Positions 3,571-64,000 of a stretch of 64,000 nt of DNA are shown here, piece after piece. Under the pieces are notes generated by a model. That model was not told the origin of the DNA. It did no database searches and worked only from the letters and a program-made list of their open reading frames with translations. How positions within the stretch are numbered: position 1 is the stretch's first letter; every line of letters begins with the position of its first letter. Both the position numbers and the translations under genes were made by a program. This DNA is from Salvator merianae (taxonomy: Eukaryota; Chordata; Lepidosauria; Squamata; Teiidae): the NCBI GenBank assembly GCA_003586115.2, contig QVOM02000116.1, positions 36,976,372 to 37,040,371 on the forward strand, in the 5' to 3' direction.

Positions 3571-6500
3571 TCAGGATTTCATTTCAGATTCTTTAACCAC
3601 TTTGGAGCCCTCTTCTAAAAGCCCTGTTACAGTAAGCACCGTGGTGTGAGGGTCAAGAACTTTTACAAGTGGTATATCAACATTTCGTTCATGGAGAATT
3701 TGATCATGTAGGGTCATAGCTAACATAGAGTCTATACCAATAGATGAAAGGAGTGTATTCATTGTAATATCATTTGGGTCTGCACCAATGAGTTGGCTCA
3801 CTAATGATAAGATATAGTCTTCTGATTTTATTGGAGCCAAATCCTGGAATACAGTTTCTTCTGAAAATTCAATCTGACTGCCTAATAACTCTATCATGAT
3901 ACTAAGCATGCGAATTCTGACTGCAGGAATTCGAGAACTATAATGGTTGAACAAAGACTTGAAATTCAGCTTTGCTACAACTTGCTGAGGGTTCTTTAGA
4001 ATTAAGTTTGTCCTAAGATGCTCATGGATATCATTCACTTGCAGTGTTGATACACCCTTCATTTTCAAAAGATGTTGAAGCTGATCTTGATTTGCCAGAA
4101 CTCCAAGATTCATGGCACCCCAGTTGATGGATTGTCCTGACAATCCACAGTTTCTCCTATAGTGGCAGAAAAAGTCCAGGAAAGAATTGGCAGCAGCATA
4201 GTTCGCTTGTGCTGAGTTTCCCAAAAAGGAAGAAATCGATGAATAACACACAAAATAATCAAGATCTTGCCCCTTAGTAGCCTGGTGAAGATTGATAACT
4301 CCAGCAACCTTTGGGCTCAAAACTTCCTCAAGTGTAGAGAGAGTCAAGGCTTCAATGGCTGCGTCATGAAAAACTGCAGCACTGTGGAAAACACCTTTGA
4401 TTGGGCACTTTGGGAAGATTTTGCCAATTGAATGAATGGCTGTCTCAACATTAAGCCTAGAAGTCACATCGCACTGCAAACTAACTACCTTGCTCCATTT
4501 ATTCTGATTTTGCAGATTATTTATTTCCTTCTGCTTCTCAGCAGTGACTTTTCTCCGTGACAGGATCACAATGCATCCGCCACCATTTTCAGCAACGAAC
4601 CTCACAGTTTCAAAGCCAAGCCCTGTGAGTCCTCCTGTGACTATGTAGACAGCATTCTGCTTAAACAGTTTCTTCTTGGTTTCGTGCACCAGTATGTCAG
4701 AAATGCCGCTGCTGTGCTCATTCTTTTTCAGCACAGCAAAGGGCATGGATTTGCAAGTCAATTTTGAGAAACCTGGAATGTTTGTGCTGTCACTGTTCAT
4801 TGCCTGCTGAAAAACAGAACAGGGCAAGTTCTTAAATTTCTTCTGTTGCCTTGATTTCATCCAGCTGCAGAACGCCTTATGAGATCTTTCCAGATATGCT
4901 TTCTGGAAAATGGTGGCAAGGTTGAGGACATGAACTTCAATGTTTTCAAGGCCACATCCACTAAGAGCTCTGAACTGCTTAGAATGGTGGGTGTCGCACA
5001 TCACCACTACGTCCCGGAGACTTGAAAGATGAACACAAGTGTCCTTGGGTAATCTTTCTAGGGGAGGAATGAAAACAAGGGCATTGCATTTAGCTATACC
5101 TGGCTCCAGGCTGCTCTCAAGGGTTGTGCATAAGGTTTTCCAACCTAGTTCCTCAGCTGAAAGTGCAAGCACCTTGCACAAAACGGACCCTGGTTCAGTA
5201 GAAATAATGCCTAAAGTTCCGTTGCGTTTGCTTTTTGGTAACATCTGATGAAAGATTTCCCATGCTATTCTGAAGAAGGACATGCAGGGTGCAGTTTCAA
5301 AACACAGAAATTTCTTGGTTTTGAAACACATTGCTTCTGGAATCCTGATTCTTGAAGATGCAGCAACTGGATAACATAGAGCAATGTGGTCTCCCACTTT
5401 GATGTTTTTCACCTGACAACCTGTTGCAACTACTGTCCCACTGCAGTCCAAAGCCAAGAGCTTATGTTTATCAACTGTCTGTGACTGCCAGTATAATGTG
5501 TCCCCAAAATCATAGCTGGAAACAGTAAGGGGGTAATAATCTTCAGAATGGATAGCTATTTTTTCAACATGTACTTCCACACTGTCCTTATCAAGAGGAG
5601 TATCAATGCAATCTGCCACCTCAGCAAACACTTCTCTCATTTCATGGGAATCAGAGGTGTACAGAGTGCACATAGTTTCAGGATCTTGAAGGAAACTGGA
5701 AAGATGTTTCTGGGACATATCAGTAGTCTGGGTACGTCTGATCTCAGAAGTATAAATTCTGCCCTGAGCGATTGAGATTTCAGGATATTTCTCTGCTTTG
5801 CACCCTAGTAAAACACTCACTAAGGCTGAAACGTCCATTGCCCTTGTTGAATTGACATCGATCAGCTGGAATGTGATCTCGGTAGCTTCGACAATACAAC
5901 TTCTAGCCATGCCATACAAAGCAAAGCCAGGGTTAATGTGGTCCACGTTGCTGTCTGTGGTCCTGTAAGTAATGATCTTGATTGAACCATGGCTCGTCTT
6001 TGCTCTCAGGGCAACAATAAGTTGTCGGAACGCTTCACAGCACTTTGACAAACTTGCAACAACACTGCCAGAATCTTCTTCATTTAATCTTTGAATGCCC
6101 CACATGAACAAGACATCATTATATCCCTCTACCGCTTGCATAATGCTGTCCTGAGCAGCTGATTCTGGGCTCCCGGATCCCAATAATTTCTCCCAGTCTT
6201 TGTACATCAGAAACTTGGAATCTTTGTGCAAGTATTTTTTCAGTTGCTGAGATATGCCACTTTCATCAGCAAACACGGCAACCCTGCGCATTTCTGCTGA
6301 CTTTTCCATTGTCTGGGGAACAATAACTTCCTTCCATTTATTTTCAAGCAGGAAAAGCCCTTCACTATTGGGAGTTATCATAAAAGTGATTCCAACACCT
6401 TTCATCTCAACCAAAACAGAGCCATTTTTATCTGTGAAGCATCCGCAGTATTCCACATAGTTTTCAGTCATTTTACTGGTTTTTATATAGATCATCATTT

Positions 6501-9111
6501 CCTCTTCCAGAGGTCTCACCATCACAAAGCTGTCTATGTTAGAAGGAAATCCTGCATACTTTTCCATGGTTTTTGTGCTCATCACACCGGTCATTTGCAA
6601 AAAACAATCTAAGAGAGCAGGGTGAATAAAATAATCATGCATATCTTCTCCAATGTCTTTGTTCACCTTAATAGTGGTTATTGCTTCTTTCAGTTCTTCG
6701 CAGTAAAAAACATCAGTGAGTTGCCTGAGTGCGGAACCAAACTGAAATCCATACTGAGCTAATGTTTCATATACTTCATTCTTACTGACAGAAGTTTTAC
6801 ACCGCTCCAAGACATCTCTATAAGAAATGTTCTTTTCTTCAGGACAGATTCCTGGGTCCTGTATTATTTGCCCCATTGCATAAACAGCACCTGTTGGAGA
6901 CAGTATTTGGAAATCTCTGGCTGGCTTAGGGGATTCAAATTTGACGTTCAAATCCTGAGTACTTTCACCTAAAACACACGGTGACTTAAATGTAATGCTC
7001 ATCTGATAGGAACTTAAAGGCTCTTTTGGACCAGCGGTAGTCATTGCAGCTGCCAAAGCAAGTTCAACAAAAAAGGCACCAGGAAGCAGAGCAATGCTGT
7101 TATGTTTGTGCTCAAACAAATAAGGTGTTACCGACTGAGATATGCAGTACTTGAATTCCGTACCGTCACTGCTGAAGCTGGGGATTAGCAGATGCTTTAC
7201 GTTTGCAACTTTTTGACTTGGCGATTGCAGCGTGTTTCCAAAGAGTGTGGGTTGCTTACGATCAAACTGATACCTGGGATACGCTGCAGGCGGGCTGCGA
7301 TAATCCTCGTAGAGGTGCTCCCAATCTGGGTTGAATCCCAATTCAAAAAGGCCCTTAACAAGTGCAAAGAGTGTCCCATACTCTTGGTCAAAGTGCAGGG
7401 AAGGAAACACTTTAGTGTCCGTTCCTAAAATTTCTACTATGTATCGCTTCAGTGCTCTCTGGGGACCAATCTCTATAAACACGGGATTCTCTGTGCCTTT
7501 TGCTGAAGCCATAACAGCGTCTTCGAAAGAAACAGGATCTCGCGCCTGCCTGGCCCAATAGGTACCAGTAACGAAATCGCCACATGAAACCGCCTTCCCT
7601 GTTGCTGTGGAAATTAGATCCACTTCTGCCTTTCCTTTCTTTAACTCCGATAGGCTTGCTGCCATCTCTGTTAGCACTGGATCCATCATGTGGCTGTGAT
7701 ATGCTGCTGGCACATCTAATGGTTGGAGAAATATGTTTCTCTTGGCAAAGTGTTCCGCCAAATGCTTCTGAAGGGCCTCAATGGAACCTGCCTCTCCCGA
7801 CAGTGTGCAAGACAAAGGACTGTTAAATGCTGCGATACACACCTTCCCGGAATATGCTGCAAGGGCAGCTGACACCTCTGGAACGGGGATGTTTCCAACC
7901 ACCAGCATCTTACCTCCCGAGACCTTAGCCTGGAGCCTGCTCCTGTGATAGATGACTTTGACAGCATCCTCCAGGGAAAGCAAGCCCGCACAGTGGGCGG
8001 CAGCCACTTCGCCAACAGAATGGCCAACAGCAGCAACGGGCTCGATCCCCCAGTGCCGCAGCAGTGCGACCAAGGCCACTTGCAGCGTGAAGAGCAAAGG
8101 TTGCGCAACGTCCGGACGGGACAAATCTTTGCAGCCATTTTCTGGTAGGTTTAGGAAGCTATTAGGCAAAAATTGCTGAAACAGCCCTTCGATTTCTTTC
8201 CATTTGGCTCTGAAAACCGGCTCAGATCTTAGCAAGGCACCAAATATCCCTTTCAGATTCAGACCATTGCCAGAGAATACAAAAACCAATTGTGGAGCCT
8301 TTTTTGATGGAGCTGTTTCCTTTTCAGCTGCAGAAAGAAGCTGCTGCTGTAACTGCTGGAGCGAAGATGCCACAAAAGCTTTTCTGTGCTTGTAGTTCAC
8401 GTGGCTTCTTCTGCATGCAGATGTATAGGCCAGATTTGGGAGTGTTGCTGCGTCCCCTGTGCTGAGGTATTTCCTCGTGTCCTCCATTGCCAGGAGAAGG
8501 GACTTGCTTGAAGCTGCCGAAATGACAAATATTTCAGCAGGCCTTTTGACTGGAGGAAGGACATGGTTTGACTTAAACTGCCTCACAACCACATGGGCAT
8601 TGGTCCCACCGAACCCAAAGGAGTTGATCCCAGCCACTCTGCCAAATTCGCTAGAATCCTCCCAATTCTCCACTGTCGTTGGAACGGAGAGATTTAATTC
8701 TTTTGCATTGATGCTGCTGCTGTCCTCTGAGAAGTGCAGAGAGGGAACGATCTTCCCATGGTGCATCATGAGAAGGACTTTGATTAAACTTGCTGCCCCA
8801 GCAGCTGACTCTGTGTGCCCGATGTTCCCTTTAACGGAGCCAATCTTCAGGGGGGGCACACGGGGAGACCTCCTTTTGCCAATGGCATTGCCTAGACTCT
8901 CTGCCTCAATGGGATCTCCTGCAGGGGTCCCTGTACCGTGTGCTTCAACGTAATGCACAACGGATGGGTCTACATGAGTTGAATAGATGCTGAGTAACAA
9001 CTTCTCCTGGTCCTGTTGAGATGGTCTGGTGATTGGAGTGACAGATCTTCCATTCTGGTTGATGGTGCTGATGCTGATGACTCCCCATATTTTGCTGAAG
9101 TCTTCTTGTGC
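3571..9111 (-). CDS. PKS (left gene) last coding exon: rest of KS, AT, DH, degenerate ER, KR, ACP
   Basis: One intronless exon of 1,846 codons plus TGA. The acceptor ataaaacag/GCA joins ...LKK to AQEDFSKIWG. KS: His310 in VEAHGTGTP, Lys346 and His351 in VKGNIGH. AT: Ser617 in GHSVG, His724 in AAYHSHMM, Arg642 in YHRSR as the likely malonyl-carboxylate contact. DH: His920 in an HxxxSxxxxP motif (usually HxxxGxxxxP) and Asp1087/Gln1091 in HPALLDCFLQ. No SAM-binding methyltransferase motif is visible in 1170-1430. At 1474 a GroES-like DCSGTVVATG...VGDHI segment marks an ER/MDR fold, but the GGVG-type NADPH loop is absent. KR: TGGLTGLG at 1744-1751, Lys1853, YSS around 1876, Tyr1890 and Asn1894. 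ACP: Ser2047 in GIDSM, the phosphopantetheine site. No thioesterase follows, so release must be spontaneous or in trans. Predicted cycle: condensation, ketoreduction and dehydration without enoyl reduction, i.e. a polyene. Confidence 0.95.
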   Translation of the reverse strand, partial: AQEDFSKIWGVISISTINQNGRSVTPITRPSQQDQEKLLLSIYSTHVDPSVVHYVEAHGTGTPAGDPIEAESLGNAIGKRRSPRVPPLKIGSVKGNIGHTESAAGAASLIKVLLMMHHGKIVPSLHFSEDSSSINAKELNLSVPTTVENWEDSSEFGRVAGINSFGFGGTNAHVVVRQFKSNHVLPPVKRPAEIFVISAASSKSLLLAMEDTRKYLSTGDAATLPNLAYTSACRRSHVNYKHRKAFVASSLQQLQQQLLSAAEKETAPSKKAPQLVFVFSGNGLNLKGIFGALLRSEPVFRAKWKEIEGLFQQFLPNSFLNLPENGCKDLSRPDVAQPLLFTLQVALVALLRHWGIEPVAAVGHSVGEVAAAHCAGLLSLEDAVKVIYHRSRLQAKVSGGKMLVVGNIPVPEVSAALAAYSGKVCIAAFNSPLSCTLSGEAGSIEALQKHLAEHFAKRNIFLQPLDVPAAYHSHMMDPVLTEMAASLSELKKGKAEVDLISTATGKAVSCGDFVTGTYWARQARDPVSFEDAVMASAKGTENPVFIEIGPQRALKRYIVEILGTDTKVFPSLHFDQEYGTLFALVKGLFELGFNPDWEHLYEDYRSPPAAYPRYQFDRKQPTLFGNTLQSPSQKVANVKHLLIPSFSSDGTEFKYCISQSVTPYLFEHKHNSIALLPGAFFVELALAAAMTTAGPKEPLSSYQMSITFKSPCVLGESTQDLNVKFESPKPARDFQILSPTGAVYAMGQIIQDPGICPEEKNISYRDVLERCKTSVSKNEVYETLAQYGFQFGSALRQLTDVFYCEELKEAITTIKVNKDIGEDMHDYFIHPALLDCFLQMTGVMSTKTMEKYAGFPSNIDSFVMVRPLEEEMMIYIKTSKMTENYVEYCGCFTDKNGSVLVEMKGVGITFMITPNSEGLFLLENKWKEVIVPQTMEKSAEMRRVAVFADESGISQQLKKYLHKDSKFLMYKDWEKLLGSGSPESAAQDSIMQAVEGYNDVLFMWGIQRLNEEDSGSVVASLSKCCEAFRQLIVALRAKTSHGSIKIITYRTTDSNVDHINPGFALYGMARSCIVEATEITFQLIDVNSTRAMDVSALVSVLLGCKAEKYPEISIAQGRIYTSEIRRTQTTDMSQKHLSSFLQDPETMCTLYTSDSHEMREVFAEVADCIDTPLDKDSVEVHVEKIAIHSEDYYPLTVSSYDFGDTLYWQSQTVDKHKLLALDCSGTVVATGCQVKNIKVGDHIALCYPVAASSRIRIPEAMCFKTKKFLCFETAPCMSFFRIAWEIFHQMLPKSKRNGTLGIISTEPGSVLCKVLALSAEELGWKTLCTTLESSLEPGIAKCNALVFIPPLERLPKDTCVHLSSLRDVVVMCDTHHSKQFRALSGCGLENIEVHVLNLATIFQKAYLERSHKAFCSWMKSRQQKKFKNLPCSVFQQAMNSDSTNIPGFSKLTCKSMPFAVLKKNEHSSGISDILVHETKKKLFKQNAVYIVTGGLTGLGFETVRFVAENGGGCIVILSRRKVTAEKQKEINNLQNQNKWSKVVSLQCDVTSRLNVETAIHSIGKIFPKCPIKGVFHSAAVFHDAAIEALTLSTLEEVLSPKVAGVINLHQATKGQDLDYFVCYSSISSFLGNSAQANYAAANSFLDFFCHYRRNCGLSGQSINWGAMNLGVLANQDQLQHLLKMKGVSTLQVNDIHEHLRTNLILKNPQQVVAKLNFKSLFNHYSSRIPAVRIRMLSIMIELLGSQIEFSEETVFQDLAPIKSEDYILSLVSQLIGADPNDITMNTLLSSIGIDSMLAMTLHDQILHERNVDIPLVKVLDPHTTVLTVTGLLEEGSKVVKESEMKS

Positions 9112-11049: not shown

Positions 11050-11231
11050 CTTCTTTAATGATTTCAGCAAAAGAACACCACAGCCTTCTCCTCTTCCATA
11101 TCCATCAGCCTTTATAGAAAAGGGTTTGCTGGTTCCGTCTGGAGAGATCATTCGTGACTTTCTAAGAGAGACAAAAATCTCTGGATCTAGGATACAGCTC
11201 ACTCCTCCACAAAGAGCAGATTCGCAGTCTC
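11050..11231 (-). CDS. PKS (left gene) coding exon 5: KS after the active site
   Basis: 182 nt encoding DCESALCGGVSCILDP, then SPDGTSKPFSIKADGYGRGEG and CGVLLLKSLKK. The F-S-x-K-A-D-G-Y-G-R-G-E-G motif is a canonical ketosynthase signature. The acceptor is tcctgcag/GA and the donor AAGAAG/gtacac, leaving phase 0 so that exon 6 begins with a whole codon. The paralogous exon is 62231-62412, same length. Confidence 0.93.
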
Positions 11232-13534: not shown

Positions 13535-13738
13535 CTTGTCTGATTGCATGCAAGGCAAAGTGTAAAGCATAATTAAATGACGAGCAAGCTGTGTCGATAG
13601 CAACTGACGGTCCAGTCAGATTAAATGTATATGAAATCCGATTTGCAGCTATGCTCATGGCTGTCCCAGTGCCAGTGTAATGGTTTATGTCAGCGATGTT
13701 CTTGTTAGACATCAACCTGAAGTCTTGATTCATCAGAC
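13535..13738 (-). CDS. PKS (left gene) coding exon 4: KS active site, cysteine present
   Basis: 204 nt encoding LMNQDFRLMSN, then ADINHYTGTGTAMSIAANRI, FNLTGPSVAIDTACSSF and HAIRQG. The D-T-A-C-S-S motif carries the nucleophilic cysteine that accepts the growing chain in KS domains; by exon counting it is residue 175. The acceptor is cttcacag/GT and the donor ACAAG/gtaaac. The paralogous exon at 59834-60037 has the same length but glycine in place of this cysteine, which makes this copy the condensing-competent member of the pair. Confidence 0.94.
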
Positions 13739-15831: not shown

Positions 15832-15992
15832 CAATAAAAACTCCTGTTTTTGAACCACTAATATTTTCTCTGCTAACTCCTGCATCTTCCAGTGCTCTGT
15901 AGGTGCATTCCAAAAGTAATTTATGCTGGGGATCCATATATTTGGCTTCTATATCATTAATTCCAAAAAGCCTGTTGTCAAAGGCATTTAGT
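15832..15992 (-). CDS. PKS (left gene) coding exon 3: KS, FDN/MDPQ region
   Basis: 161 nt. It encodes LNAFDNRLFGINDIEAKYM, then DPQHKLLLECTYRALEDAG and ISGSKTGVFIG. The F-D-N-x-x-F-G-I and M-D-P-Q-x-x-x-L-L-E-C motifs are diagnostic for ketosynthases. The acceptor is tttgtag/A and the donor ATTG/gtaagac; phases join exons 2 and 4 as ...ALIEG-LNAFDN... and ...VFIG-LMNQD.... The paralogous exon at 58996-59156 has the same length. Confidence 0.92.
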
Positions 15993-21354: not shown

Positions 21355-21508
21355 CCTTCAATTAGGGCAGCATGTTTTGTATCTGTTTTTCCTGGCTTCC
21401 GACTATCTGGATCATACCATTCCTTAATGTCAAATCTTTCTGGTGGTATTTCTACAGTACAGTTTCTGCCTTCAACTAGAACGCGCCAGAAATTATCAAT
21501 TCCTTCAC
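21355..21508 (-). CDS. PKS (left gene) coding exon 2: KS N-terminal region
   Basis: 154 nt, entering with two bases of a split glycine codon and leaving with GG of another (donor GAAGG/gtaagt). It encodes GEGIDNFWRVLVEGRNC followed by an IPPERF segment, EWYDPDS and HAALIEG. This is the standard stretch after the first KS strand (the FW..L and PPERW-like motifs of type I PKS). It aligns without gaps to the paralogous exon at 56756-56909, at about 31 identities in 52 residues by eye. It has no ATG near its start and is easily missed in open-reading-frame lists. Confidence 0.9.

Positions 21509-23093: not shown

Positions 23094-23094
<1 letters not shown>

Positions 23095-23135
<41 letters not shown>
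23095..23135. repeat. (TATC)n microsatellite
   Basis: About ten tandem TATC units in intron 1 of the left PKS gene, about 50 bp from exon 1. Confidence 0.97.
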
Positions 23136-23187
23136 GAATATTATGAAACATATATTTTATAGCTTAAACTTAACAACTTGTTTTCAC

Positions 23188-23242
23188 CTCCAGGAAAATT
23201 GCATCCAATCCCCACAATGGCAATCTCCTCCTTGATGTCCAT
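23188..23242 (-). CDS. PKS (left gene) coding exon 1: start and first KS strand
   Basis: This exon encodes 18 residues, MDIKEEIAIVGIGCNFPG, plus one base of the next codon. The IAIVGIGCNFPGG motif is the classic N-terminus of a type I ketosynthase. The donor reads GGAG/gtgaaa. Upstream, about 16 nt before the ATG, is a pyrimidine-rich stretch ending in AG, which looks like a 3' splice site and would leave a short 5' UTR in this exon. The right-hand paralogue has the same arrangement with an identical coding length of 55 nt. The open frame continues further upstream to an ATG at 23341, but that part reads through the splice site and has no family similarity, so the internal ATG was chosen. Confidence 0.9.
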
Positions 23243-23999
23243 CAATTCTTCTTTTATTCTGAAATTAAAAATAGCAATGATCAATACATCTACATCTGCT
23301 ACTAAGACAGCATATGCCAAAAGAGAACAATGCATTTGCATAGGAAATGATGTTGCAAAAAGGGCAAAAACATAGAGTATACCTCTTGGGAACTATTTTA
23401 ATGTGTTCACTCGGGTATATTATTTCAGAAACCAAACTCAAGAACCTTTTCTCCAAACATGTTAAGTCAGTGTATATCATTCTCCTGCATTTTAACCTCA
23501 TTTCAGCCCTGTGCGATAGGTAAGACCAATACCAATAGCAGGACCATCTTGAAAGGACAATAATATGTAGACATAACCTAAATCATTGCCAATTATTGCA
23601 ATGCCTGGTAAGATGAGACAAGGCACTTATGTATGGCAAATGTCTGAAGAAAACAGCACTTTGGCAAATGTCTGAAGACTTCCTTGTCCACCACACAGTC
23701 TGAATCCAAATGACAAGTATGGCTGAGAATGTAAAATGGGTGAAGAGATGATGATAGAAACATACTTAATCCCAGGATTCAATGTTGTGAGCTGAAACTG
23801 TTAAACAAATACTCTTCACTAAAATTCAGAAGCTTTCAGTCAAAGCACATTTGTATATGAGAGTAAAAATAATATAACAAATGAATTTGTTTTAAAAACA
23901 AGAGATCAAATCAGGAGGGTTTGGAGGTACAACGGTTTATGTATGCACAGTGTTTAGAGAAGATAAAGGATGAATTTTGAATTAGAAAGGCAGAAATGG

Positions 24000-24522
24000 G
24001 AAGAAGATCTTGAGAAAAAAGGAGATAGGCATTATAGGTGTGATGCATAAACTAAACAGGGGTCAGAAATTTTAATTATAATATACAGATGGAACAATGA
24101 GACAAACTTTGGATTAAAGATTTGAAATTTTGTATATATAATGCTTTAAAATAAAAAATATATAAGATGATGTATAGTGTTGCTATGGGGGTAAATGGGA
24201 ATACTGGGAATTAGTCCCTCCCCAGGCACTAGACACTCGGGAATCATATTGGATAGGTTTTAAAAACATTAAACTGACTAGGAAACTCTAAACAAAGAGG
24301 GAGTAAAGGAAAACACTCTTAGGCTCAGGGTTGCTCCAAAACAATGGTGCATCTTTATTAAAATCCAGCAAAAAAGACTTTAAAGTTAAAGAAATAGCAA
24401 TAATCAGTGCAATTTGCCAGAATTAGCTACTATCACAGTTAGTTAGGCAATTGCTAGGAGTAGGAGCAAAGAAGGAAAAAGGAAAAGAAAAGGTTTAACT
24501 TCAAACTAAGTAAGGAGACCTA

Positions 24523-50659: not shown

Positions 50660-53600
50660 GTCATATTGTTACATCCTTTCTTTCTGAATGTACGGCCTAA
50701 ATGGATCTTTTGTCCTTCAGGTTATTTGGCCTTCTTCTTATGCCTCACATCTTCCAAAGCAGGAAGTGACAAAGAGCATTTTCTTAATGTTAGCTTCCAC
50801 TATTGTTTAGGAACAGCTTATTTGCAATTGTTAGATGCGACTGAGTCATGGCTGATTCCTGGTTCACGCCATGGCACCTCCTCTGGCACCTCTATGCAGT
50901 TTTCTTGGCAGAGATGCAGAAGTGGTTTGCCATCGCCTGCTTCTGAGAAGACGCTAGGGATTGAAACAATGTCCTTTTCCTTTCCAAATAGTTTGCTTTA
51001 CCTCTGAGCTACAACCAACACAATAGTATTACTTCGAACAGCTGTGCACACCCCAATGGGGCCAATGTGTAGGTGTACCAGGTACCTTTACTGGCCTCCT
51101 GAGAACAAGGTAAAGCCCTTACCTGGGAACCTGCTCCTCTTAGTATCCTGGGCCTTCTCTAAGGGATGGTCATGCTGCATGAAGTCATTGTGTGTCAACA
51201 TAAAGATTGGGGCTTCTCAGTTCAGTTTAGTGTTATTTGTCCTTTGTGGACCCAAGACTGGCCAGGGGAAACTCTAGCAGAGCCTAAATTCACATTGCCA
51301 TGTGATGATATCATTATATGGCTTGACATGATAATATCTACCCCATATCCTCTTAGGATTGTAGAAGGCACAGGACACTAAGGAGCAGCAGGTGTACCTG
51401 GTAATATACTTCTGTGCATAATTTGAGGAAAGGCTCAGAAGCATTAGGCTTTAGAAGACATGGTTTTATGATTTCTATACAAAGTCCTAATTTTTCATCT
51501 CCATCCTTTCTCTGTGCTGGATGAAAAATCAGAAGCTGGAGCCTGCCATTTCATGGGATTATACACAGGTGTGCAGATATACTAATCTAGATAATAATAG
51601 GGCAACAAACTTAGGTCCTGGCCTAGCATTTAGCCACTATACTATTGAACTATTTTAAACAAGAATGATTCAGATATGATTACTTTTTAATCTTTGGAGG
51701 CATTTTCCTGATGTGTTGCTGCGCTCTCATATCCCACACCTGAAAGAGTCTTGTCTTATAGAGAATATTCCACCAGAATTTACTTCAGGATCTCTCATTC
51801 TGTCAGGAATTCACCAGAGGCCTTGCCTACACTTTCAAATGGATGAGGCTCATTCCTGGGGGGAGTGCTGTGTTTGCTGCTGAAAATGATGCCCCCGCGT
51901 CTCCATTTGTGAACACAGAGGGGTCATTTCTGGCACTGATTGTTGTGCCTCCTTGAGGGCAGCAAAATCAGCCCCTCAGAAATTGATGCCTCAGACGGTG
52001 ATTGCATTCAGTAATGGGGCAGCACAACTGCTCTAAAGCACCTACTGCCACCACAAATGGGGACGGCAGAAGGTGCTTTACTGGTACTCAGTACCTTGTC
52101 ATGGAAATGGAGATGTGGCCACAATCTTGTAACTCAAACTGCATTCACACGCAGTAAAAAAAAGAGGGGCTTGAAAGCATCTCAGGGGTGGTAGCATGTG
52201 GCACAAGTCTTTTCATCCAGTTCTAAACCCATCTCCAATCCAGCTGTACTACGCTTTGGAAGTGCATGTTCTGGCTGTCAATGTGCACTAGAGGCAGGAT
52301 GAGCATGTGACAGCTTTTTTGTTGCAAATGGGTGCAGCCCTGTTTTTCAATGGCTACTTGTATCTCATATCTCCTCTCATTCCTGAAAGGAATCTTTTTT
52401 TTCCTTAAGCAAGAATCCATGCACTGGCTCTCTTCATTTTACCTTAGTTAACATGCATCTTGGGATTTCTTTTCTCTTTCGGGATCATAATATTGACATC
52501 TACTGTCCTAAGTGTAAAATGCTGAATCACAATATTTTTGAATCCGGGTATGTAGTTCAGAAGACAGTACTGTACAACCATATATCAGTACAGTACTACT
52601 GAGTAGGATTATTCAAAATGCTGTCTCAGATGCTCTACAAAACATCTGAGATAGCATGGGGATCAAGTAGTCATCTCAAACCTAGGAGCAAGATGAGCGC
52701 TCGGCTGGTCTCATCTTACTCCTGCACATCCCTCCTGGCCTTCTTAGGGCTTTGGGATGAGTTTGCCAGTCACAGTGTTGCACTGCACGATGATGTCATC
52801 TTGGTTATTTCTTCTCTAGAGCCTTGACAGGTGACTGAGGAAGCTCGAGCAGGTCCAAATGCCATGTGAGAAGGCCAGAAATGTCATGCAGGAGCAAGGC
52901 AGACTCAAGTGAGGAGCAGAGATGTGCATGAACTGAAAAATGGGATTATGCACACTGCTACTTCATGTCGTTATGTCTCCTGCTGCTCTTGTATGCCACT
53001 GCCAGCCTTTTTAGGTTCACACCTACCTGATGGGATGTGCCACTCCCTCATCCCTTTCAGTCAAGCCACTCGGGGGTCATGATTTCCTGTCAGAGCACCA
53101 TTTTGCTTCTCGTGTTTGGACTACACCTTGCAATGGACCATGCTTCTCGTCTGCATGGTGCCACTTCTGGGAAGTGCTCTAACAAAATTGGTCACACCAA
53201 GCACGTGAACAGGAAGTGGTGCTTCTGGGACTTGTATTCCCAGCAGAAGAAGGTACGCCAATCATCCAGCAGTGGAGTTTTAGCATAATGGGGACCTAGG
53301 CAGCAGTTCAGCACAGGCTGGCAGACAGGCACAGACCAAGTTGGGAAGACAATGGCATGGTCTGAAGTGGGGAAGCAGTGTGGCCTGGCAGATAAATGGA
53401 AGTTGACAGGGGGCAGTGGTGCATGGCCACAGGGGAAATTTGGTGAGTTAGGGTGAAAGAGATTCTTGAACTTTCCTGAGGTTCTCTTGCATGTGGGCTG
53501 CACCTCAACACCTAACCCTTGCTCAGCTCACTAATGAGGTAACTAATGGAGGAGGGGATCATGGCAAGCCAACTAATGGCAAGCCAGTCTTCATAGCTCT

Positions 53601-54480
53601 GATGGGAAGTGTTCCACTTAGCAAACTCAGCCCCCATGTAAAGGGGCAATGCTGTCTTTGGTACTAAGACCATTTGTGAAACTAGGCACTGTGGATCTTC
53701 AGGTTCCTCCATGTTCTCCATTTTCTCACCCTCCAGTAATCGATGTGTTTCCTTTCCAGCAGCCTCCATGCTGCAAGTCCGTCTCTCTACTCAGTCTCCA
53801 AACCTCTGCTTCCTCTCAACTCCCTAATCTAGCAGCGTCAAAATATGTATGCAACTGGCAAACATGCTCAGTAGAACACTATATGCAATTGTCCATGTGA
53901 AAGGCAAATGAATTAACTGTAGTTAGCCTACCACCCACCACATATCTATGCATGCTAAGCTTTGCCTCAGCAATTCTTAAAATACCCTTGTTAAATAAGC
54001 TGTTATAAGCTCCAGGTGATGTTGGTGATGGCACTTAAGTTAAAAGATATTTGCTTACCAGTTGTCTTGACCTTTGACCCATGAAGTAAAAGTTAAGTGT
54101 GTATAAGGGAGGCTCCTAGTACACTTGCAGGTCTGGTATACCTGCCAGTGTGGGATCGCCTGAAGATTCTCTGGTCAGTGCACCCCTTCTAGGGCTTGGG
54201 ATGGGAAACAGCTACTCAGGGAGCATGGCAGTTTGCCTGTTCCACCTCCACATGACCAAGTGCCATACTGCATGTAGATGCAGCTTACGTTCAATAGCTT
54301 TCTATTACTTTTGTACCACCTGTAGTATAAAGTTTGCATACTAGAACCGTCTCAGTGCATTTCAAACCATAAATGCTCTTCATTGAGGAGTATAATGTTG
54401 TGCCCTGTGCTGCTAAATGGTTATGAAAGAGAACTGGTAATATTGGAAAAGTAAACAGAGTGGCAAGTTAGCAGTAAGTA
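50660..54480. other. Intergenic stretch, no gene recognised
   Basis: A SINE-like phrase occurs at about 50830-50960 (GGTTTGCCATCGCCTGC, seen in squamate SINEs). A MITE half-copy lies near 54105-54170. No coding region is supported. Confidence 0.5.
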
Positions 54481-54485
54481 TCTTT

Positions 54486-55025
54486 GGGCGTTTTCGCACT
54501 TATGAGAATAGAACGTACTAATTACCAGGGTTCGGGCTGGTCAGGATCAGGTACAGTGATGAGTATTTGCACTTGTCAGCAATGGAACAGTTTGTGAGCT
54601 GACCAGCAGGAGGAGCAGTGTGAATGGGAATGCACTAGTTAGGTAGCTGTGTTCGAATCCAGAGGAGCTGTGTTCAAACCCAGAGAAACTGTGTTCGAAC
54701 GTGTGTCCGAAACGGCAGCCAGGGTCTGGACCCCAAGGTCTAAACCAGGGTGTGAACTGTTGGATGGCGCCTGTGCGGCCCCACTGGCTCCGCCCACCTC
54801 CATTCCAAACCTGGAAGTGGTGCCAACGCACCTTTCCTGATCTGCACCTGATTGCACAGGTCAGTTTGGAGACTACAGTTTAGTTGACCACAACTGGTGG
54901 GCTTCAGGTGATTATCAGGTAGGCTTCAGTAGATTTTGGGTCAGCTGGGGCTGTTTGCAAATGTGAATGCTGCATTCCAGTGAGTGTCCTGGAACATTCC
55001 TCTTGCTAGGTGGGAATGCGACCCC
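54486..55025. mobile_element. MITE-like element directly upstream of right PKS exon 1
   Basis: The left end reads GGGCGTTTTCGCACTTATGA and the right end GGTGGGAATGCGACCCCT. The ends are weak inverted repeats and resemble the 13.9-15.6 kb and 46.3 kb elements. It ends about 25 bp before the splice acceptor of the first coding exon of the right PKS gene. Confidence 0.45.
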
Positions 55026-55094
55026 TAACTCTGTTTTCTCTCCATAGGATAACGGCCTTATTTAGATATTGGCATAAACAAAAATAACTCAAAG

Positions 55095-55149
55095 ATGGCA
55101 TCTGAGGATGAAATAGCTATTGTGGGAATAGGATGCAACTTTCCTGGAG
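55095..55149 (+). CDS. PKS (right gene) coding exon 1
   Basis: Encodes MASEDEIAIVGIGCNFPG plus one base; donor GGAG/gtaagt. A 3' splice site, TTTTCTCTCCATAG, ends at 55048, leaving a 46-nt 5' UTR in this exon and implying an upstream non-coding exon. The frame reading on past the donor is not family-like. Confidence 0.9.
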
Positions 55150-56755
55150 GTAAGTCCTTTGCCTGTATAAGCTGCTCAAGAATAAGGCTAGAATTGCCTA
55201 GTTGGTACAATGGTTCCATACGTTGTAAAGAAGGCGTCATCCCCAGGGTCTCTTTTCAGACACCTCTAGTTGTCTTCAGGGCCCGATGGACAAGCATGTT
55301 CATGACCTTTCAGCCCCAGGATGTGGCTCAGCCCCCAACAAATGTGACCTATCTTTAATCCCCTTCTTAGTATTCTGAGGCCATCTTGCCAAGGGGAGTT
55401 GCTTCCTGGCTTGCTGTGGTGGCCAGGAATTGACTTGGGGGCCAAAAATGCACCTAGAATCACATCCAGTGACCAAAAATCTAGTGGACATCCATCTGCA
55501 CTCCTGCTTCCTGGCAGCAATTCTAGCCATGAGTCGGGACTGTGGCAAATAATGTTCCATGATCAAGCATTCCCTTGGGACTCCAGGGCAGCATGTGATG
55601 TGGACCACATACCCATGCCCCCAGGGCAGCCCTCCACATAGGTAATACATCCCACTGGGGTGTGGATGAAGCCTTAGGATATGGTTGAACTTTTATCAGT
55701 TAATAATAATTGCTGGACTAATCCGGACCCACTGATCTGGGTTTAAGATAGGTAAGTGCAGAAAGGACCTTACATTGTACACCAGTGATTGGCAGTTGTA
55801 GTTTCTATAGAATTCAAAAAATCAACTCTTATTTGAAAAGCTGGTCCACTTTTAAAAGGTTCAGATGAATCTGGATCTATCTACACACAACCCTTATCCT
55901 CCAATTTAAAAGGATATCTGCTTGAATTACACATCAAGAGAGAACAGACCAAAAGCAGATAATGCATGTCCAGTGTGCTTGCTTTCCTAGAACACCAGAG
56001 AAATACTGTGTCTGATGCACAGGGGATAGTTCTGCCCTCTACCACACCCCATCTGAAATTTCTGCTGTCACTATAAATGATTTATCCACCCATCTCTGGC
56101 AGCTGTCCTATTCTGTCATGTTCTTTGCTCCTGTGTAAAAGTAGTCCTGTGCAAATTTATTTCTGAGCAGGAATGTTCCTGTATCTGTTTAGTTTTAGTC
56201 CCGCCCAGTTGCATGCTTCTTCTGCTCCCATCTGTGTAGCTATAGTTAGGTTTGCCACACTGAAATAAATTTTGACAGCAGGGCTATGTAGCTTAGCAAG
56301 GAGGTCTAAGCAAGTGTTCCTGTGCAGAACTGCAAACTAAAACAATAACCTAAAGGCAGAAACCCTTCCCTCCCAGAACCAATTGGTAACATGTCACTGG
56401 GACTCCACAGTGCCATAAATGATTAGTTGCCTCAACCACAAAAATGAGGTATTCCCTCATAGAATACCAACATCCAGTCTCTATAAACATGCAATATGGG
56501 CACACCTAAAAAATGTGTTAGTGTATGCAGTGAACTTTCTATGTGCAAAATGCATGCTGCAGAAGACAGGGATTGGAAGGAAAATACTGCACAATGTACA
56601 TGGGATCTCCCATTTTGGTGTGATTTCCCCAGCAGCCGAAACTGATGCAATCCAGGGTAAAACTTCTGTGTAGCTATCCACTTGGGCAAAACAGGTATAA
56701 CATTTTTGTAAATAAAGACTATATATGTATAATGTATTACATTTCTATTCCACAG

Positions 56756-56909
56756 GTGAAGGACCGGACAATTTCTGGAAAGTACTGGAAAATGCTAGAA
56801 ATTGTACTGTAAAAATACCTCCAGAAAGACTTAAAGTTCAAGAATGGTATGATGTAGATGATAACATACAAGGTAAAATACCTACAATGCACGCTGCTCT
56901 TCTTGATGA
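56756..56909 (+). CDS. PKS (right gene) coding exon 2
   Basis: Encodes GEGPDNFWKVLENARNCT, then IPPERLKVQEWYD and MHAALLDE. The acceptor is ttccacag/GT and the donor GATGA/gtaagt. Gap-free against exon 2 of the left gene. Confidence 0.92.
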
Positions 56910-58995
56910 GTAAGTGTCATATCTTTCTAACAAATTACAAACTTTCTAGACATATAAACTAAATGGACACATTTTCCTATGAACTGACTGAGTAATTGCT
57001 TAAGTTATACAAATTGCTTGTCATTTTAAAATATTTATTTAAGAAAATGATGGATCACATTTTTCTGCTTATGGGAAAGGTAAAGAAAATAACCCCCAAA
57101 ATACAGATACATTATTTTTATCATTATCTTTTACCATGAAGGTATTTAAATACTGTAATCTATATCAGGGCTGGCCAAACAATGGTTCTCGAGATGTTAC
57201 TAAATACAGCTTTCAAGAGCTGTATTCCGACAAAGGGCAATGGAAGATGGAAGTTGTAGTTCAGCAAAGATTGGTCAGATTTAATTAGTACATTTTCCAG
57301 CAAGTGTATATTTTAGATCAGATCAGCAGTTATGCTGCCAATTCAGTTTGATTGTTCCGTATGACTTCATATTAGCAGTCTGGACTGAAGTATTCTCAGT
57401 CCAGAAAATCAGATGAAATCAGGAATTGTTCTTTTAGCAAATTCACATAATTAAGATAAGAACAATCAGCTTTAATTTAACTAGAATAAGTTTAATTCTT
57501 CCATTTATCTAATACAGCAATTTGGGTTGCCTCAAGTTGATTAAGTGTCTGGTTGCATAAGAAAGTTGTCTTATTGTAGAACATATTTTCTTATTCATAT
57601 CTCATATTTTTGTAATTGTTAGTATAGCGATGTTGAAATTGTGGCTCACCAGATGTTTTCAAGCTACAACGCTAATAGCAGGTGCAGGAAAAGCTGTCCA
57701 ACCTCTAAGGCTCCCTGTGCATACCCAGCATGGACAGTGTAGTTTGGGCACTTGAGTTTCCCTGCTTTCCTAGAATCCTTCCATCCCATCCCCTTCCTGC
57801 CACTATCATCAGTTTGGACCCATGCTGAGATTGAAGAAGACCTAGAAATCCACTGCCTGATAGATACAGATGAAGTCTATCCTGCAGTTCCTTCCAGCTG
57901 AAAATGTTTCCAAAACTCCGTGGTGTTAACATTGCATAGATTTTGGGCAGGTCTCTTCGACAGAAGAACTGAGCTGACGAGAACCTCCTGAGATGAGATT
58001 CATTGCTCAGAGGTGGAAAAATTCTAGCTTTAACCTTGGGGTGATCCACGGATCTTGCATTTAAGGATTGCATTGGAGTTGGCAATTGGCATTAATGTTT
58101 CTTTTTGTAAACCATGCTGAGATTTTTAAGGAAAACAGTACAGGATAAACAATAATTTAAATAAATAAGTAAAAAGGTTGAATTCTCTGAACAATCTGCC
58201 TTATCAGACAATTTAGTCTAGGAAATGGTATCAGTGCTACCTTACATTTGGAACTTTGCCTCTGCTAAATAGCAGCGCAAGTAGTTTGCAGGTTATTCTT
58301 TGAAATTCATTTTCCTTTTTGGAAGCAGCAAACATGGTTCTGAAGGAAATGGGTTGGAATCTGGCAGCAGTTTAAAAGCCAAGATGTGCCACCTGTACTT
58401 GCTACTTTTTCCTGATTTCATGTTAGCAAGGAGGGTGGATAGACTTATTGACTACTGAGCAGAAGACCAAAATATGGATCCCATAGAAAAGTAAGTAGTG
58501 TATGGCATATTTCAACATTGTTTGACATTCCTTTTAAGGAATGACATTTGGTGGGAAGGAAGTCTGATCCTGAGCCAACAGTTCATCCATGTGCCTCGTT
58601 GTTTGGATTTTTCCCCTAGTTGCTTCCTCATCTCTCTCTTGCATTGTTTGGTTACCAACTGCCTGTTTGCAGGCTTGCAGCTTTTGACATCAAGATTCTG
58701 AAAAAAACAGTTGTCAGGCAAGCAGTGGCAAGGAAGAAGGAACTGTGCTCACAACTACACTCCATAGAGGGATTGCGTGACAGTGTTGTTTTCTGCTGCT
58801 GAAGCTTCCAAGGTGTGATCCTGCACTGAATTAGGTGCATGCTATGGATATTAAAACAGTAATTACTGTGCCATACCTTGAGCTCATTTGCTGGTGATAT
58901 AGATTGTATCCTTCAGTACCTTTTTAAGTGCAAACAAGTTGAGTAAGCCACATGTGAATCACATAATACATCTTGCCTGCATTTTTATTGTTTAG
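56910..58995 (+). other. Intron 2 of right PKS gene
   Basis: 2,086 bp. Possible hAT-type fragments occur around 57168-57290 (GGGCTGGCCAAACAATGG) and 57632-57740. Nothing else is recognised and no extra exon is needed. Confidence 0.5.
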
Positions 58996-59156
58996 ATTTA
59001 ATGGCTTCGACAACAACTTGTTTGGCATTAACAATGAGGAAGCGAAGCATATGGATCCTCAACAGAAACTACTTCTGGAATGTACTTATAGAGCCCTTGA
59101 AGATGCTGGAGTCACTCCTGAAAACATCAGTGGCACCAAAACAGGAGTTTTTGTTG
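58996..59156 (+). CDS. PKS (right gene) coding exon 3
   Basis: Encodes FNGFDNNLFGINNEEAKHM, then DPQQKLLLECTYRALEDAG and TKTGVFVG. The acceptor is ttgtttag/A and the donor GTTG/gtgaga. Typical KS core; MDPQQ is even closer to consensus than the MDPQH of the left gene. Confidence 0.93.
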
Positions 59157-59833
59157 GTGAGAAAATAGTGCTTAAGGCGTACATGCTATGAATTTGTCAG
59201 TAACTCTATACATTCATTGTAGCACTGCTCACACAGCAATGCCTCATAGCACTATGGATTCCTTGGCCTCCAACAGCTGTTTGAAGACTGTCATTTTTGC
59301 CAGAATTGACCATACTTTTCACTTGTCTATTTTCATTTGACTTCTTTCCATTGTGTCTAGCAAGGACAGGAGAACTCACTTCTGATAAGACGATCTGCTC
59401 TGTCCCCCATGCTGCAGTGGCAGTGGCTGTGGCAGTTGGTGAAGGCCCTCTTGCTGAAAGCTGGTTTGTGAGCGTCCTTTGAAGTCCATTTCAAAGGAAG
59501 CTCACAAACTGGTTTTCAGCGTGGGAAGGAGCTTCCAGCTCTAGTCACCTGCACTGGCTGCCCCTGCACAGTGTGTATCCATTTGCACAGTGTGTATCCG
59601 TCAACGATAAATGCTTCTAAAACATTACAGAGCTAAAGCCATGAATGTGATAATGACTAGTCTGTGAAGATGTTTCTGACATGTAGAAGGAGGATGTGCT
59701 TACTGGCCCCTATAGAGGAAGCCAGGGTTAAAAGTGATATCAACAATTGTAAGATAGGAGGTGAAAAATTAGGAGTACTGCATGATGGAGATAGGAGTGT
59801 TTGCCTTGATTTAACAAAGGATTTTATGTATAG

Positions 59834-60037
59834 GTCTGATGAATCGAGACCATGAATCCATAACAAGTAAAGCAGTTGCTGAAATAAACCACTACAGCAG
59901 CACAGGAACAGCGATGAGCGTGGCTGCTAACCGGATTTCATATGCTTTTAATTTGACTGGACCATCACTTGCCATCGACACAGCTGGCTCATCTTTCCTT
60001 TTCGCGCTGCACCTTGGTTACAAGGCCATTAAACAAG
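59834..60037 (+). CDS. PKS (right gene) coding exon 4: KS active site with Cys-to-Gly change
   Basis: Encodes LMNRDHESITSKAVAEINHY, then STGTAMSVAANRISYAFN, LTGPSLAIDTAGSSF and KAIKQ. The codon at the nucleophile position (residue 175) is GGC, glycine, where the left gene has TGC, cysteine. The flanking D-T-A and S-S are unchanged. The frame and both splice sites (tgtatag/GT, CAAG/gtactc) are intact. Without the cysteine a KS cannot hold the acyl chain for condensation; known KS variants with other residues here act as decarboxylases or as length-controlling partners. Confidence 0.93.
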
Positions 60038-60477
60038 GTACTCAGCTTGTTAATCAATAACTATGGGTTTCCTTTGGGAATTAAATTTAGCTTCTATAGG
60101 ATGTGCACCATTGGGATGTACCTCAGTGGTTTAGCATGCAGAAGGCCCCGGTTCAATCATTGGCCTTTCCGGGTAGGGAAAGTCCCCTGCCTAAAAACTG
60201 TAGAGCTACCGCCTTGTTACACTCAGAACCATTTCACACAGATTTTTTTTGGGGGGGGCGGGGAGCAAGCAGACTGCAGGGAATCTAATTAATATTGAAG
60301 ATTTCCCAAACTGAAGCTCTTGAACCTGTAAGAACTCTAAGAACCTCTGTAATGATTTCTAAACTCCATTATGGTAAGAAGGAAAGTATTGCCATAGTTC
60401 TTTCTGCCTCCCCTAATCTCTTCTTTCAGCATATTTTCATATGTAAGAATGAAGGAAACCGAAGAGGGTGGAACATT

Positions 60478-60735
60478 GGCCAGTTTGGCCTTGTGGTTAG
60501 CATGTCAGACTCTTATCTGGAACTCTCCCAGTTCGAGTCTGCACTCTGCATGAAGCCAGCTGGGTGACCATGGGCTTGTCACAGCTCTGTTCTGAGTTCT
60601 CACAGCCCCGTCTACCTCAAAAGGTGTCTGTTGTGGGGAGAAGAACAGAAGGTTTGTCAGCTTCTTTGAGTCCCCTCAGGGTAAGAAAAGTGGGGTTCAA
60701 AAACCAACTACTCCTCCTCCTCCTCCTTCTTCTTT
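60478..60735 (+). mobile_element. tRNA-derived SINE in intron 4 of right PKS gene
   Basis: The 5' part has an A-box-like GTGGTTAGCATGTCAGACTC and a B-box-like CCAGTTCGAGTCTG. The body follows: GGGTGACCATGGGCTTGTCA, CCCCGTCTACCTCAAAAGGT and GTCTGTTGTGGGGAGAAG. This is a widespread squamate SINE. The tail is (CTC)n-like, at 60710-60730. Confidence 0.8.
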
Positions 60736-62230
60736 CTGCACTTACCTGTAGTAAGTTGGGAACAATGCATCCAGAATAGCCCAGACCACTGATCCTGACC
60801 ACAGAAAGGTATGGTCGGGATCAGGCAAAGTTGTGGCTGGAAAGCTCATGTGAGCTTTGCAGCTGTACCCCCACACCTCTGAGTCTAGGAACAAATTTTC
60901 CTAGCCTCGCGGGCTCTGTGGGGTGCTTTTTAGCAGCGCCCTCCAGTAGTCCCAAACATGGGAGACATGCCTTCTGCATGCCGTCCATGTTCCAGATCAG
61001 GGCCGTGCTGGTCTGCTGGTAGACCCAGTTAAATGGGTCTACCAGTGATCCAGATTAAGGCCTCTCTGATTCTGGATCACACTGTATCTGTGGCCTCATA
61101 GATGTGCACTAATGTGCAGATCTATGAGGTCTAGAAGTGTATTACATGGATCCTTAATCAGTATTAAGGGTTCATGCATAAAGGCCCATTGTTTCCACTT
61201 TCTCTTCCTAAGCTTTCTACATGTGCTCTGTGTGTAGAATCTTTTAAGCTGCATCTCTGAGAAGGCATGGGGTCTGTTTTGCTGGAAGCCATCCTCTTCT
61301 AGAAGCTCCCAAAGCCAGAGCATATATCGAGTCCTAAAGGCTGATTCAAGCAATAATTTCCCCTTGTGGCTATATTATATAGGAAGTCTATGTATATTCT
61401 CCCATCCATGAGTGATTTATTTCAGTAACCCACTAGTCATCATACTGTCCAGGTTCTCCAACATCTGACACAGACCTTGTTAATCCAGGAATTGTCTGAG
61501 CTGGCATGACTATTTATTTTTCTTTCATAGCTGAGGTAGGGTAGGTGGTTGTAGGTGAAGTGTTAGGGGCCTTGCCTAAAGATCCTTACTGGGTGGGTGT
61601 TCCAGCTGGTATCTGAGCCAGCATTCTGCATGGTGGCTGCATGGTAAACTGTGTGGGTAACCACTGTACTGCTCAACCACTATCCAGTCAAGCATCAACA
61701 GACTACACAAGCAGAAAAAAGGTAGAGCAAGGGTTAATAGGTGTCCAGGCCACTGTCCTAAACGAAGAGAGAAACATTCAGGAATACATTGGTAAAATCG
61801 TTCCTACAGATGAACTGCTAAGAGAATGTTGCAGACAACTGGAGGCAAGGAGCATGAATGAAGAGCAAGCCGTGCAGGTACCTTAGCATAACAAGCCCCT
61901 CCATGATTGGAACATCTGCAGATCATAGAAGTGGCTGACACTGGAAAGTCCTATCAGTGGCTGGAAAAAGCAGGACTGAAAGACAGCACTGAGGCACTAA
62001 TCTTAACAGCATAAGAACAGGCACTGGGTACAAGATCAATAGAAGCAGGTGTTTACCATACCAGACAGGATCCCCGCAAATATGCAAAGAGCCCCCTGAG
62101 ACAGTCCAGGACATAGTAGCCAGGTGCAGAATGCAGGCTGGTAAAGCATATACAGAGCAGCACAACTAAATTACAGGAACAATTGCAATGAGTACTGCCT
62201 CAAGAGTTGCCTATCTGTCCTTTAATACAG

Positions 62231-62412
62231 GAGACTGTGAATCTGCTCTTTGTGGGGGAGTGAACTGCATCACAGAACCTTGGAAGTTTGTGTCCCTAAG
62301 TAAAGCAAAACTTGTGTCACCAGGAGGAATCAGCAGGCCTTTCTCTAGAAAGGCAGATGGCTATGGAAGAGGGGAAGGCTGTGGTGTAGTTTTATTAAAA
62401 CCACTGAAAAAG
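62231..62412 (+). CDS. PKS (right gene) coding exon 5
   Basis: Encodes DCESALCGGVNCITEPW, then SPGGISRPFSRKADGYGRGE and CGVVLLKPLKK. The acceptor is ttaatacag/GA and the donor AAAAAG/gtatgg. The KADGYGRGEG signature is intact. It ends in phase 0 like the left gene; the following exon lies outside the window. Confidence 0.93.
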
Positions 62413-62566
62413 GTATGGCATTTATATTGTGCTTTCCAGTTCCTAAAATGGGAAGAAATCTTACTGTCTTATCCAGCAGTATAAGGGTTCAGAGTTTGTG
62501 GAGAAAACAGTGTCATCACATGGTTGAAAATGGTTTCTTTGGAATTGCCACACATATCTGTGGGAA

Positions 62567-63765
62567 CATAAAAACATAAGAGAAGCCCTGTTGGATCAGC
62601 CCATGGCCCATCTAGTCCAACATCCTGTCTCACAAAGTGCTCCACCATTTGTTTCTAGGCATTCTGAAGCAGAATAAAAAAGCAAAACCTTCACCTGGTC
62701 TCGACTCCCTGCAAATGGCCTTTAGAGGTATCCTACCTGTCTCTCCACCCTGGAGGCAGTACCTAGCCATCCATTCTAGTAGCCATCGAAGTTTTGTTTA
62801 TCTGCTTTTTCCATACTGTGCATGATTTTATATAGTTCAGTCAGGTCCCCTCTTAAATGCTGTCTTTCAAGGCTGAAGAAGCCAACACGTTGCAGCCTAA
62901 TTTCATAAGGAAGGTGTTCCAGCCCCTTGATCATTCTGGTTGCCCTTTTCTGCACCTTTTCCAGTTCCACAATATCCTTTCTGAGCTGAGGTGATCAGAA
63001 TTGTACACAATATTCCAAGTATGGTCTCACCATAGATATATAAAGAGGCAGAATGACACTTGCTGTCTTGTTTTCTATTTCCCTTCTAAGTACCCCTAGC
63101 ATTGAATTTGCTTTTTTCACTGCTGCTGGACACTGGGTTGACATCTTCATTGAACTGTCAACCAGAACCCCAAGATCCCTTTCCTGGTCTGTCACAGAAA
63201 ACTTGGCTTCCATCAATTTATAGGTGTAATTGGGGTTCTTTGCCCCATTGTGCATCATTCTGCGCTTGCTAAGATTGAAGTGCATTTGCCACATAGTTGC
63301 CCACTCATACAATGTCAAGTGGTCCCTCTGGAGCTCTTTACAATCACTTTCCATTTTTACTGCCCTGAATAATTTAGTGTCATCAGTGAACTTTGCTAAC
63401 CTACTACTTACCCCTACTTCTAGATCATTTATGAATAAATTAAAAAGCACTAAACCTTGTGGGACACAACTTCTCACCTCTTTCCACTCTGAGAACTTTC
63501 CACTCTTTATTCCTACTCTCTGGTTCCTGTCCTTTAGCCAATTACCAGTCCAGAACAGGATCTGTCATCTCATTCCGTGACTGCTGAGTTAATTCAGGAG
63601 CCTTTGATGAGGGACTTTGTCAAAAGCCTTCTGAAAGTCTAGACAAACAATGACAAGTGTTTATTAACACTCTCAAAGAATTATAATGAGTTAGTAAGGC
63701 ATGATTTACGTCTGCAAAAGCTGTGAGGAATTTCTTTCAGTAACGCTTGCTCCTCTATGAATGTA
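62567..63765 (-). mobile_element. CR1 retrotransposon, 5'-truncated, in intron 5 of right PKS gene
   Basis: The minus strand encodes RT fragments: FQKAFDKVPHQRLL (about 63640), CVPQGLVLFNLFINDLE (about 63460), FTDDTKLFR, RDLGVLVDSSMK and SMLGVLRREIENK. The C-terminal region has KVQKRATRMIKGLEHLPYE near 62940. The 3' UTR ends at about 62567 with the GCCCTGTTGGATCAG phrase. The catalytic YADD-type box reads FTDD. Frames are broken, so it is inactive. Confidence 0.9.
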
Positions 63766-64000
63766 GTACATTGCCCTGCGATATAAGGGTGAAATCCCAC
63801 TATATTCTGTTCTAGGAAAACCCAACTCTAATATGGATTTTCCAGAATAGTGATATAACCTGTCTGGAAGCTTGGTTTGAAGGTTCCTTCCTGGAGAAAA
63901 TGGCCCTGCACGTGACCACCATGCATGTGTGGGGGCTGGCATGCGTACACTTCTGGGTATTTCGCACTATCGAAATACCTGGAAGTAGCTGCCTTGCCAT
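63766..64000. mobile_element. Partial hairpin-MITE family copy at right edge
   Basis: Contains GATATAAGGGTGAAATCCCA, TTCTAGGAAAACCCAACTCT and a TCCAGAATAGTGATATA segment, shared with the family copies at 37.1 kb and 50.5 kb. Cut off by the window. Confidence 0.45.

Follow-up and report, generated by a model that had tools for sequence, protein, structure and literature searches.

A gene for a vertebrate iterative type I polyketide synthase (PKS) with glycine in the place of the catalytic ketosynthase (KS) cysteine has been identified on the forward strand of the window, which is the whole stretch of 64,000 nucleotides analysed here. A Cys-bearing paralogue is situated 46 kb away, and the two are referred to as the right and the left PKS. 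The five readable exons of the right gene are open and correctly spliced and show sequence constraint. It is fairly probable that the right gene is a maintained paralogue that is dead in condensation, whatever its job, an estimate that sums three readings of its function, namely a partner of an active PKS, a decarboxylase and a protein acting independently of KS chemistry. The PKSs of vertebrates are few and their products are mostly unknown. If the reading is true, a paralogue kept in sequence while devoid of the condensing residue points to a two-gene PKS in vertebrates.

The two PKS genes and the active-site codon

The readable part of the right PKS comprises five of the six expected exons, all on the forward strand:

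Positions 55095..55149, + strand: exon 1, which begins at the start codon (MASEDEIAIVGIGCNFPG) and has a blastn match to left exon 1
Positions 56756..56909, + strand: exon 2
Positions 58996..59156, + strand: exon 3
Positions 59834..60037, + strand: exon 4, with the KS active-site motif DTAGSS
Positions 59986..59988, + strand: codon of the KS nucleophile, GGC (Gly) replacing Cys
Positions 62231..62412, + strand: exon 5, with GDCESALCGG...GYGRGEGC

Joined together these exons comprise 756 bases, or 252 codons with zero stops, and all four acceptors are AG and all five donors GT. No additional exon was found within the window between the end of exon 5 and position 64000; the sixth exon, which by the left gene should hold the KS histidines together with AT, DH, KR and ACP, is expected beyond the window end. 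A frame that we take to be retroelement-like (62995-63564, - strand) sits in intron 5.

The left PKS is complete in six exons on the reverse strand:

Positions 23188..23242, - strand: exon 1, which begins at the start codon
Positions 21355..21508, - strand: exon 2
Positions 15832..15992, - strand: exon 3
Positions 13535..13738, - strand: exon 4, with DTACSS, the TGC codon lying at 13586-13584
Positions 11050..11231, - strand: exon 5
Positions 3571..9111, - strand: exon 6, with the remaining KS, AT, DH, KR and ACP, ending at the stop codon

These exons encode a protein of 2098 amino acids with Pfam matches to KS, AT, DH, KR and ACP, and a match to thioesterase was absent from the Pfam search (E 0.001). 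The KS histidine motifs are located in exon 6 (3571-9111, - strand), in which the AT motif GHSVG and the KR and ACP motifs are kept as judged by eye. The DH motif has the form H-x3-S-x4-P, and the interval between DH and KR contains a stretch with no Pfam match at the position where an inactive ER would fall. Intron 2 of the left gene harbours another frame (17447-19191, - strand) that we take to be retroelement-like. A GC-rich open frame of 282 residues (34039-34887, + strand) lies between both PKS genes and presumably resembles the first exon of PTCHD3, a patched-domain protein; a Pfam search at E 0.001 returned no hit for it, its best PDB match has an E-value of 0.22, and neither search supports the likeness.

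The initial annotation had pointed out that exon 4 of the right gene reads DTAGSS where the paralogue reads DTACSS, with a difference of one base between GGC and TGC, and this is confirmed in the sequence. Residue 175 of the right PKS, encoded by GGC at 59986-59988 inside the motif, is G, and the catalytic KS cysteine of the vertebrate iterative type I PKSs is absent from the protein. A second change in exon 4, from a conserved Ala to Gly, is found 10 residues past the lost Cys. The remaining readable exons, which had also been described as open and correctly spliced, are so over all the 252 codons, in which there is no stop, frameshift or broken splice site. A Cys-bearing alternative exon 4 for the right PKS has been ruled out within the window. 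The six-frame search with the regular expression DTAxSS returned the right and left PKS sites plus one more match flanked by stops, and tblastn with the right PKS protein gave a single significant exon-4 match per gene.

It is highly improbable that the usual codon is TGC and that GGC comes from an error of sequencing or assembly, or from a rare allele. The two codons are a single base apart and the codon is known from one assembly, but the rest of the five exons looks error-free, a random error is unlikely to strike the sole catalytic codon, and active-site-deficient KSs have been tabulated for other reptiles (PMC4604110).

The N-terminal part of the right KS is assigned to the Pfam family ketoacyl-synt (PF00109) with 270.3 bits, as against 284.0 bits for the left KS. 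In the comparison with PDB, PKS chains top the list and the best FAS scores 136.0 bits (best 60 of 124 matches). By the Pfam and PDB scores the fold of the right KS is nearer to PKS than to FAS. This fold is common with the vertebrate iterative type I PKSs such as OlPKS of medaka, ApPKS of duck and MuPKS of budgerigar. The KS-AT-DH-KR-ACP order of these proteins is present in the left gene, which has six exons like the gene of OlPKS. The active-site position is 173 in OlPKS and 175 here. The KS cysteine is present in OlPKS, and the published description of ApPKS includes it as well, whereas the right gene has glycine.

Sequence constraint on the right gene

The right and left proteins align over all 252 codons of the five exons in a gap-free manner and differ at 75 residues. 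The Nei-Gojobori estimates are 0.20 for dN and 1.15 for dS, a ratio of 0.175 (95% interval 0.10-0.27, from a bootstrap of 1000 resamples). This is not a neutral ratio for the five exons, although a pairwise dN/dS is blind to recent relaxation on a single branch. The ratios for exons 1 to 5 are 0.11, 0.46, 0.05, 0.18 and 0.16, exon 2 being the highest. The LWL85 (dN 0.19, dS 0.89) and ML (dN 0.19, dS 1.52) estimates point in the same direction as those of Nei-Gojobori. When positions 53501-64000 of the right gene region were compared with 10801-24000 of the left by blastn (E 1e-3), five matches were obtained and all of them are exons.

Five outgroup KSs (two from 7zma, and those of PksJ, CurL and LovB) share 47 invariant sites, of which 2 are altered in the right KS only, 3 in the left KS only and 7 in both. 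The right-only departures are the change of the catalytic Cys to Gly and that of Ala to Gly ten residues later. With the addition of the three bacterial KSs with glycine described below, 34 sites are invariant, and the departures are 1 for the left alone, 1 for the right alone and 4 for both. The left KS agrees with the outgroups at 65 and the right at 63 of the 94 sites that are kept in at least four of the five. At the positions that differ between the two genes, the outgroups side with the left 30 times and with the right 24 times. Relative-rate tests with eight very distant outgroups gave chi-square values of 0 to 1.81, none of them significant, the right-unique changes being more numerous in six comparisons, fewer in one and equal in one.

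At the 95% level the lesion-free state of the five right exons allows at most 0.031-0.075 neutral substitutions per site, with indel ratios of 0-0.1 assumed. The length of the branch is about 0.45-0.76, which is half of the LWL85 and ML dS, and a neutral period could therefore account for no more than roughly 4 to 17% of the branch of the right gene. The low dN/dS, the confinement of the blastn matches to exons and the kept invariant sites argue that the right gene has been constrained for most of its history.

Recent decay of the right gene, in which the loss of Cys would be the first visible lesion after selection ended and the last exon might carry worse damage, is an unlikely account. It would accommodate a PKS that has lost a catalytic residue, as well as the slight excess of right-unique changes in six of the eight relative-rate comparisons. 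Recent relaxation is missed by pairwise tests, and the reading covers five exons while the last exon, judging by the left gene, holds most of the coding sequence. However, no stop, frameshift or splice defect is seen in 252 codons, a neutral period longer than about 0.03-0.075 substitutions per site is disfavoured, the outgroup-invariant sites are kept about as well as those of the left gene, and PKS genes lacking a KS active-site residue are tabulated in three reptiles (PMC4604110). In the five of six expected exons that are readable, stops, frameshifts and broken splice sites, the signs of a pseudogene, are absent. For this readable sequence the suggestion of the initial annotation that the gene is maintained rather than decayed has gained support from the constraint, the open frames and the splice sites.

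Ketosynthases lacking an active-site residue in other genomes

In Table 2 of Hojo et al. 2015 (PMC4604110) a KS that lacks an active-site residue found in OlPKS is denoted KS*, and the right KS corresponds to this definition with Gly where OlPKS has Cys173. Counted by eye, the star is given to one of three genes in Anolis (XP_003222100), one of two in Chelonia (EMP24664), none of two in Chrysemys and the only gene in Pelodiscus (ENSPSIG00000004874), which makes 3 of the 8 genes of non-avian reptiles. It is absent in the table from the genes of birds (0/4), from the rated marsupial genes (0/2) and from those of fish (0/7). A star is also given to one of 13 lancelet genes and to the acorn-worm gene (PMC4604110), which indicates that losses of a KS active-site residue recur. 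The RNA column of the same table lists none for the three Anolis genes or for Pelodiscus and gives N.A. for Chelonia.

The starred reptile genes resemble the right gene as vertebrate type I PKSs in which a KS active-site residue is gone, and in Anolis and Chelonia they are accompanied by paralogues with an unmarked KS, as the right gene is by the left one here. The lost residue is unstated in the table, and the right gene is a candidate orthologue of the starred genes. The accession numbers of the Anolis genes seem to run in sequence, although two of the three appear in print with an extra digit, and this hints at a cluster resembling the left/right pair. The starred reptile entries may also be gene-model errors.

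A non-condensing KS of this kind in a vertebrate had been considered as new in the initial annotation. The novelty is weakened by the 2015 table with its entries for anole, two turtles, lancelet and acorn worm, although these entries go without discussion in sections 17 and 19 of PMC4604110 and in the other passages of that paper considered here. Within the passages retrieved in our literature search, Cys-less KSs of vertebrates bear mention only in PMC4604110. The right gene is probably a maintained condensation-dead paralogue of a kind that was listed in 2015 but seemingly left undiscussed. The finding makes the starred anole and turtle genes a ready test set for Gly at the KS site, and the left/right pair one for co-purification.

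The vertebrate PKSs are described as relatively widespread, with roles mostly unknown (PMC10764717). Birds are reported to have mainly one PKS gene, with two species carrying a pair that is 98% identical (PMC6334511), whereas two PKS genes are entered for zebra finch in the 2015 table (PMC4604110).

The right protein could also work by neither KS chemistry nor dimerization with an active PKS. It might, for instance, be an acyl-carrier reductase/dehydratase that receives its intermediates from a different PKS, or a protein with a binding function. In favour of such a role, the AT, DH, KR and ACP of the three starred reptile genes are unmarked (PMC4604110); a KS serving as scaffold only should, however, drift at conserved sites, and no drift is visible. 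This possibility is considered decidedly improbable.

The pattern Y-x3-L-x-G-P-x4-D-T-A-G-S-S was searched in a collection of bacterial and archaeal genomes. Four stretches were matched, three of which are KS-like:

L001, Mycolicibacterium tusciae: KS-like, with DTAGSS in the first KS
L002, Flavobacteriales MAG: KS-like, with DTAGSS in the first KS
L004, Nocardia MAG: KS-like, with DTAGSS in the first KS

The fourth (L003) is a chance match of the pattern in a frame of only 23 residues. The frames of the three KS-like proteins run off the ends of their stretches, and the KS with glycine is N-terminal in each. They have in common with the right gene the DTAGSS motif in a KS-like protein, but they are bacterial PKSs and the KS is in N-terminal position.

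Possible roles of the right gene product

The KS cysteine carries the acyl chain. In the right KS, which has lost the residue that holds the growing chain, condensation by the normal route should fail. FAS dimers with one dead KS remain active, and each KS can serve the carrier domains of both subunits; it is on this account that a partner role is put forward for the right PKS. We tentatively propose, with rather less than even confidence, that this maintained condensation-dead paralogue works together with an active PKS, to which it would contribute a subunit that does not condense. The right gene would be an old paralogue of the left that has been retained under selection despite the loss of Cys. 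In a mixed dimer elongation would be carried out by the KS of the active partner, and the right subunit would contribute its AT, reductive domains and carrier protein, the retention of which we infer, or would shape the chain length. In medaka the replacement of KS Cys173 by Asn abolished the rescue of otoliths (0 of 15 embryos; PMC4604110), so that the change disables a PKS working alone, which counts against the proposal.

The chain-length factor of type II systems (KS-beta) resembles the right gene product as a Cys-less KS homologue whose gene adjoins that of an active KS. It is a small discrete bacterial protein, whereas the right gene has a type I layout with Gly. The chain-length factor carries Gln at the KS active site, and the right PKS has neither this residue nor the small discrete form. 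The extended proposal is that the non-avian reptiles have an ancient, conserved, condensation-dead PKS paralogue with a Gly-KS, which the birds have lost. Its product would dimerize with that of the active gene next to it, and the two would be the equivalent, among animal type I PKSs, of the bacterial pair of KS and chain-length factor. In this full form the proposal is doubtful.

The non-elongating KS0 domains of trans-AT PKSs have lost a histidine. KS0 of the trans-AT PKS protein MmpE is a KS that does not condense but keeps its Cys, which the right KS has lost (PMC7619045). The C215A change in MmpE KS0 stopped the production of pseudomonic acid A (PMC7619045). A case of glycine described in PMC11672594 has been set aside as a precedent for KSs, the enzyme in the part of the paper concerned being an AT.

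The right KS may alternatively serve as a starter-unit decarboxylase. The Gly-KS would decarboxylate malonyl-ACP through its histidines and threonines and so provide acetyl-ACP for the left PKS, in the manner of KSQ domains. A model of KS decarboxylation involves two histidines and two threonines (PMC12267109), and on this model the loss of Cys should halt condensation but need not halt decarboxylation. The bacterial KSS (Cys to Ser) and KSQ loading domains are reported to decarboxylate, with condensation reduced or none (PMC12843615). The nucleophile is replaced in them as in the right KS, but by Gln or Ser and in the loading module of an assembly line, whereas the right PKS has Gly and is a separate animal gene. 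The three bacterial KSs with glycine are all first in frame, and those of the Flavobacteriales and Nocardia genomes (L002 and L004) keep the histidine in both KS motifs and are followed by an AT-like stretch, as judged by eye.

The Gln that marks the Cys position of KSQ loading decarboxylases is absent from the right KS, the residue being Gly, and this counts against decarboxylation. In animal (rat) FAS, Gln reportedly raised malonyl decarboxylation strongly, while Gly, Ser, Ala, Asn and Thr did not (Witkowski et al. 1999), which is a further argument against the decarboxylase. The AT of the duck PKS loads acetyl as well as malonyl groups (PMC6334511), and a decarboxylase would therefore be unnecessary for the supply of starters. 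On balance a decarboxylase is distinctly unlikely.

The comparison with PDB chains bears on the same question. Among the matches listed, the left KS outscores the right against 53 of 58 chains, and the exceptions are four GfsA or GfsA-like (KSQ) chains and Pks16; four of the five chains that favour the right KS are thus of KSQ type or alike. The chain 4oqj, which is not among the best 60 listed for the left KS, may be an additional one favouring the right. When exon 4 is searched by itself, the GfsA-like chains occupy only ranks 18 to 21 among 53 matches, and no special likeness is seen near the active site. The apparent preference of the right KS for GfsA-like chains is given little weight. 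The five chains among the 58 listed are 9iyw and 9jj9 (both named GfsA), 7vee, 8in9 and 9nju, of which 8in9 is labelled as polyketide synthase only, and 7vef, identical in sequence to 7vee, is termed a KSQ decarboxylase (PMC12267109).
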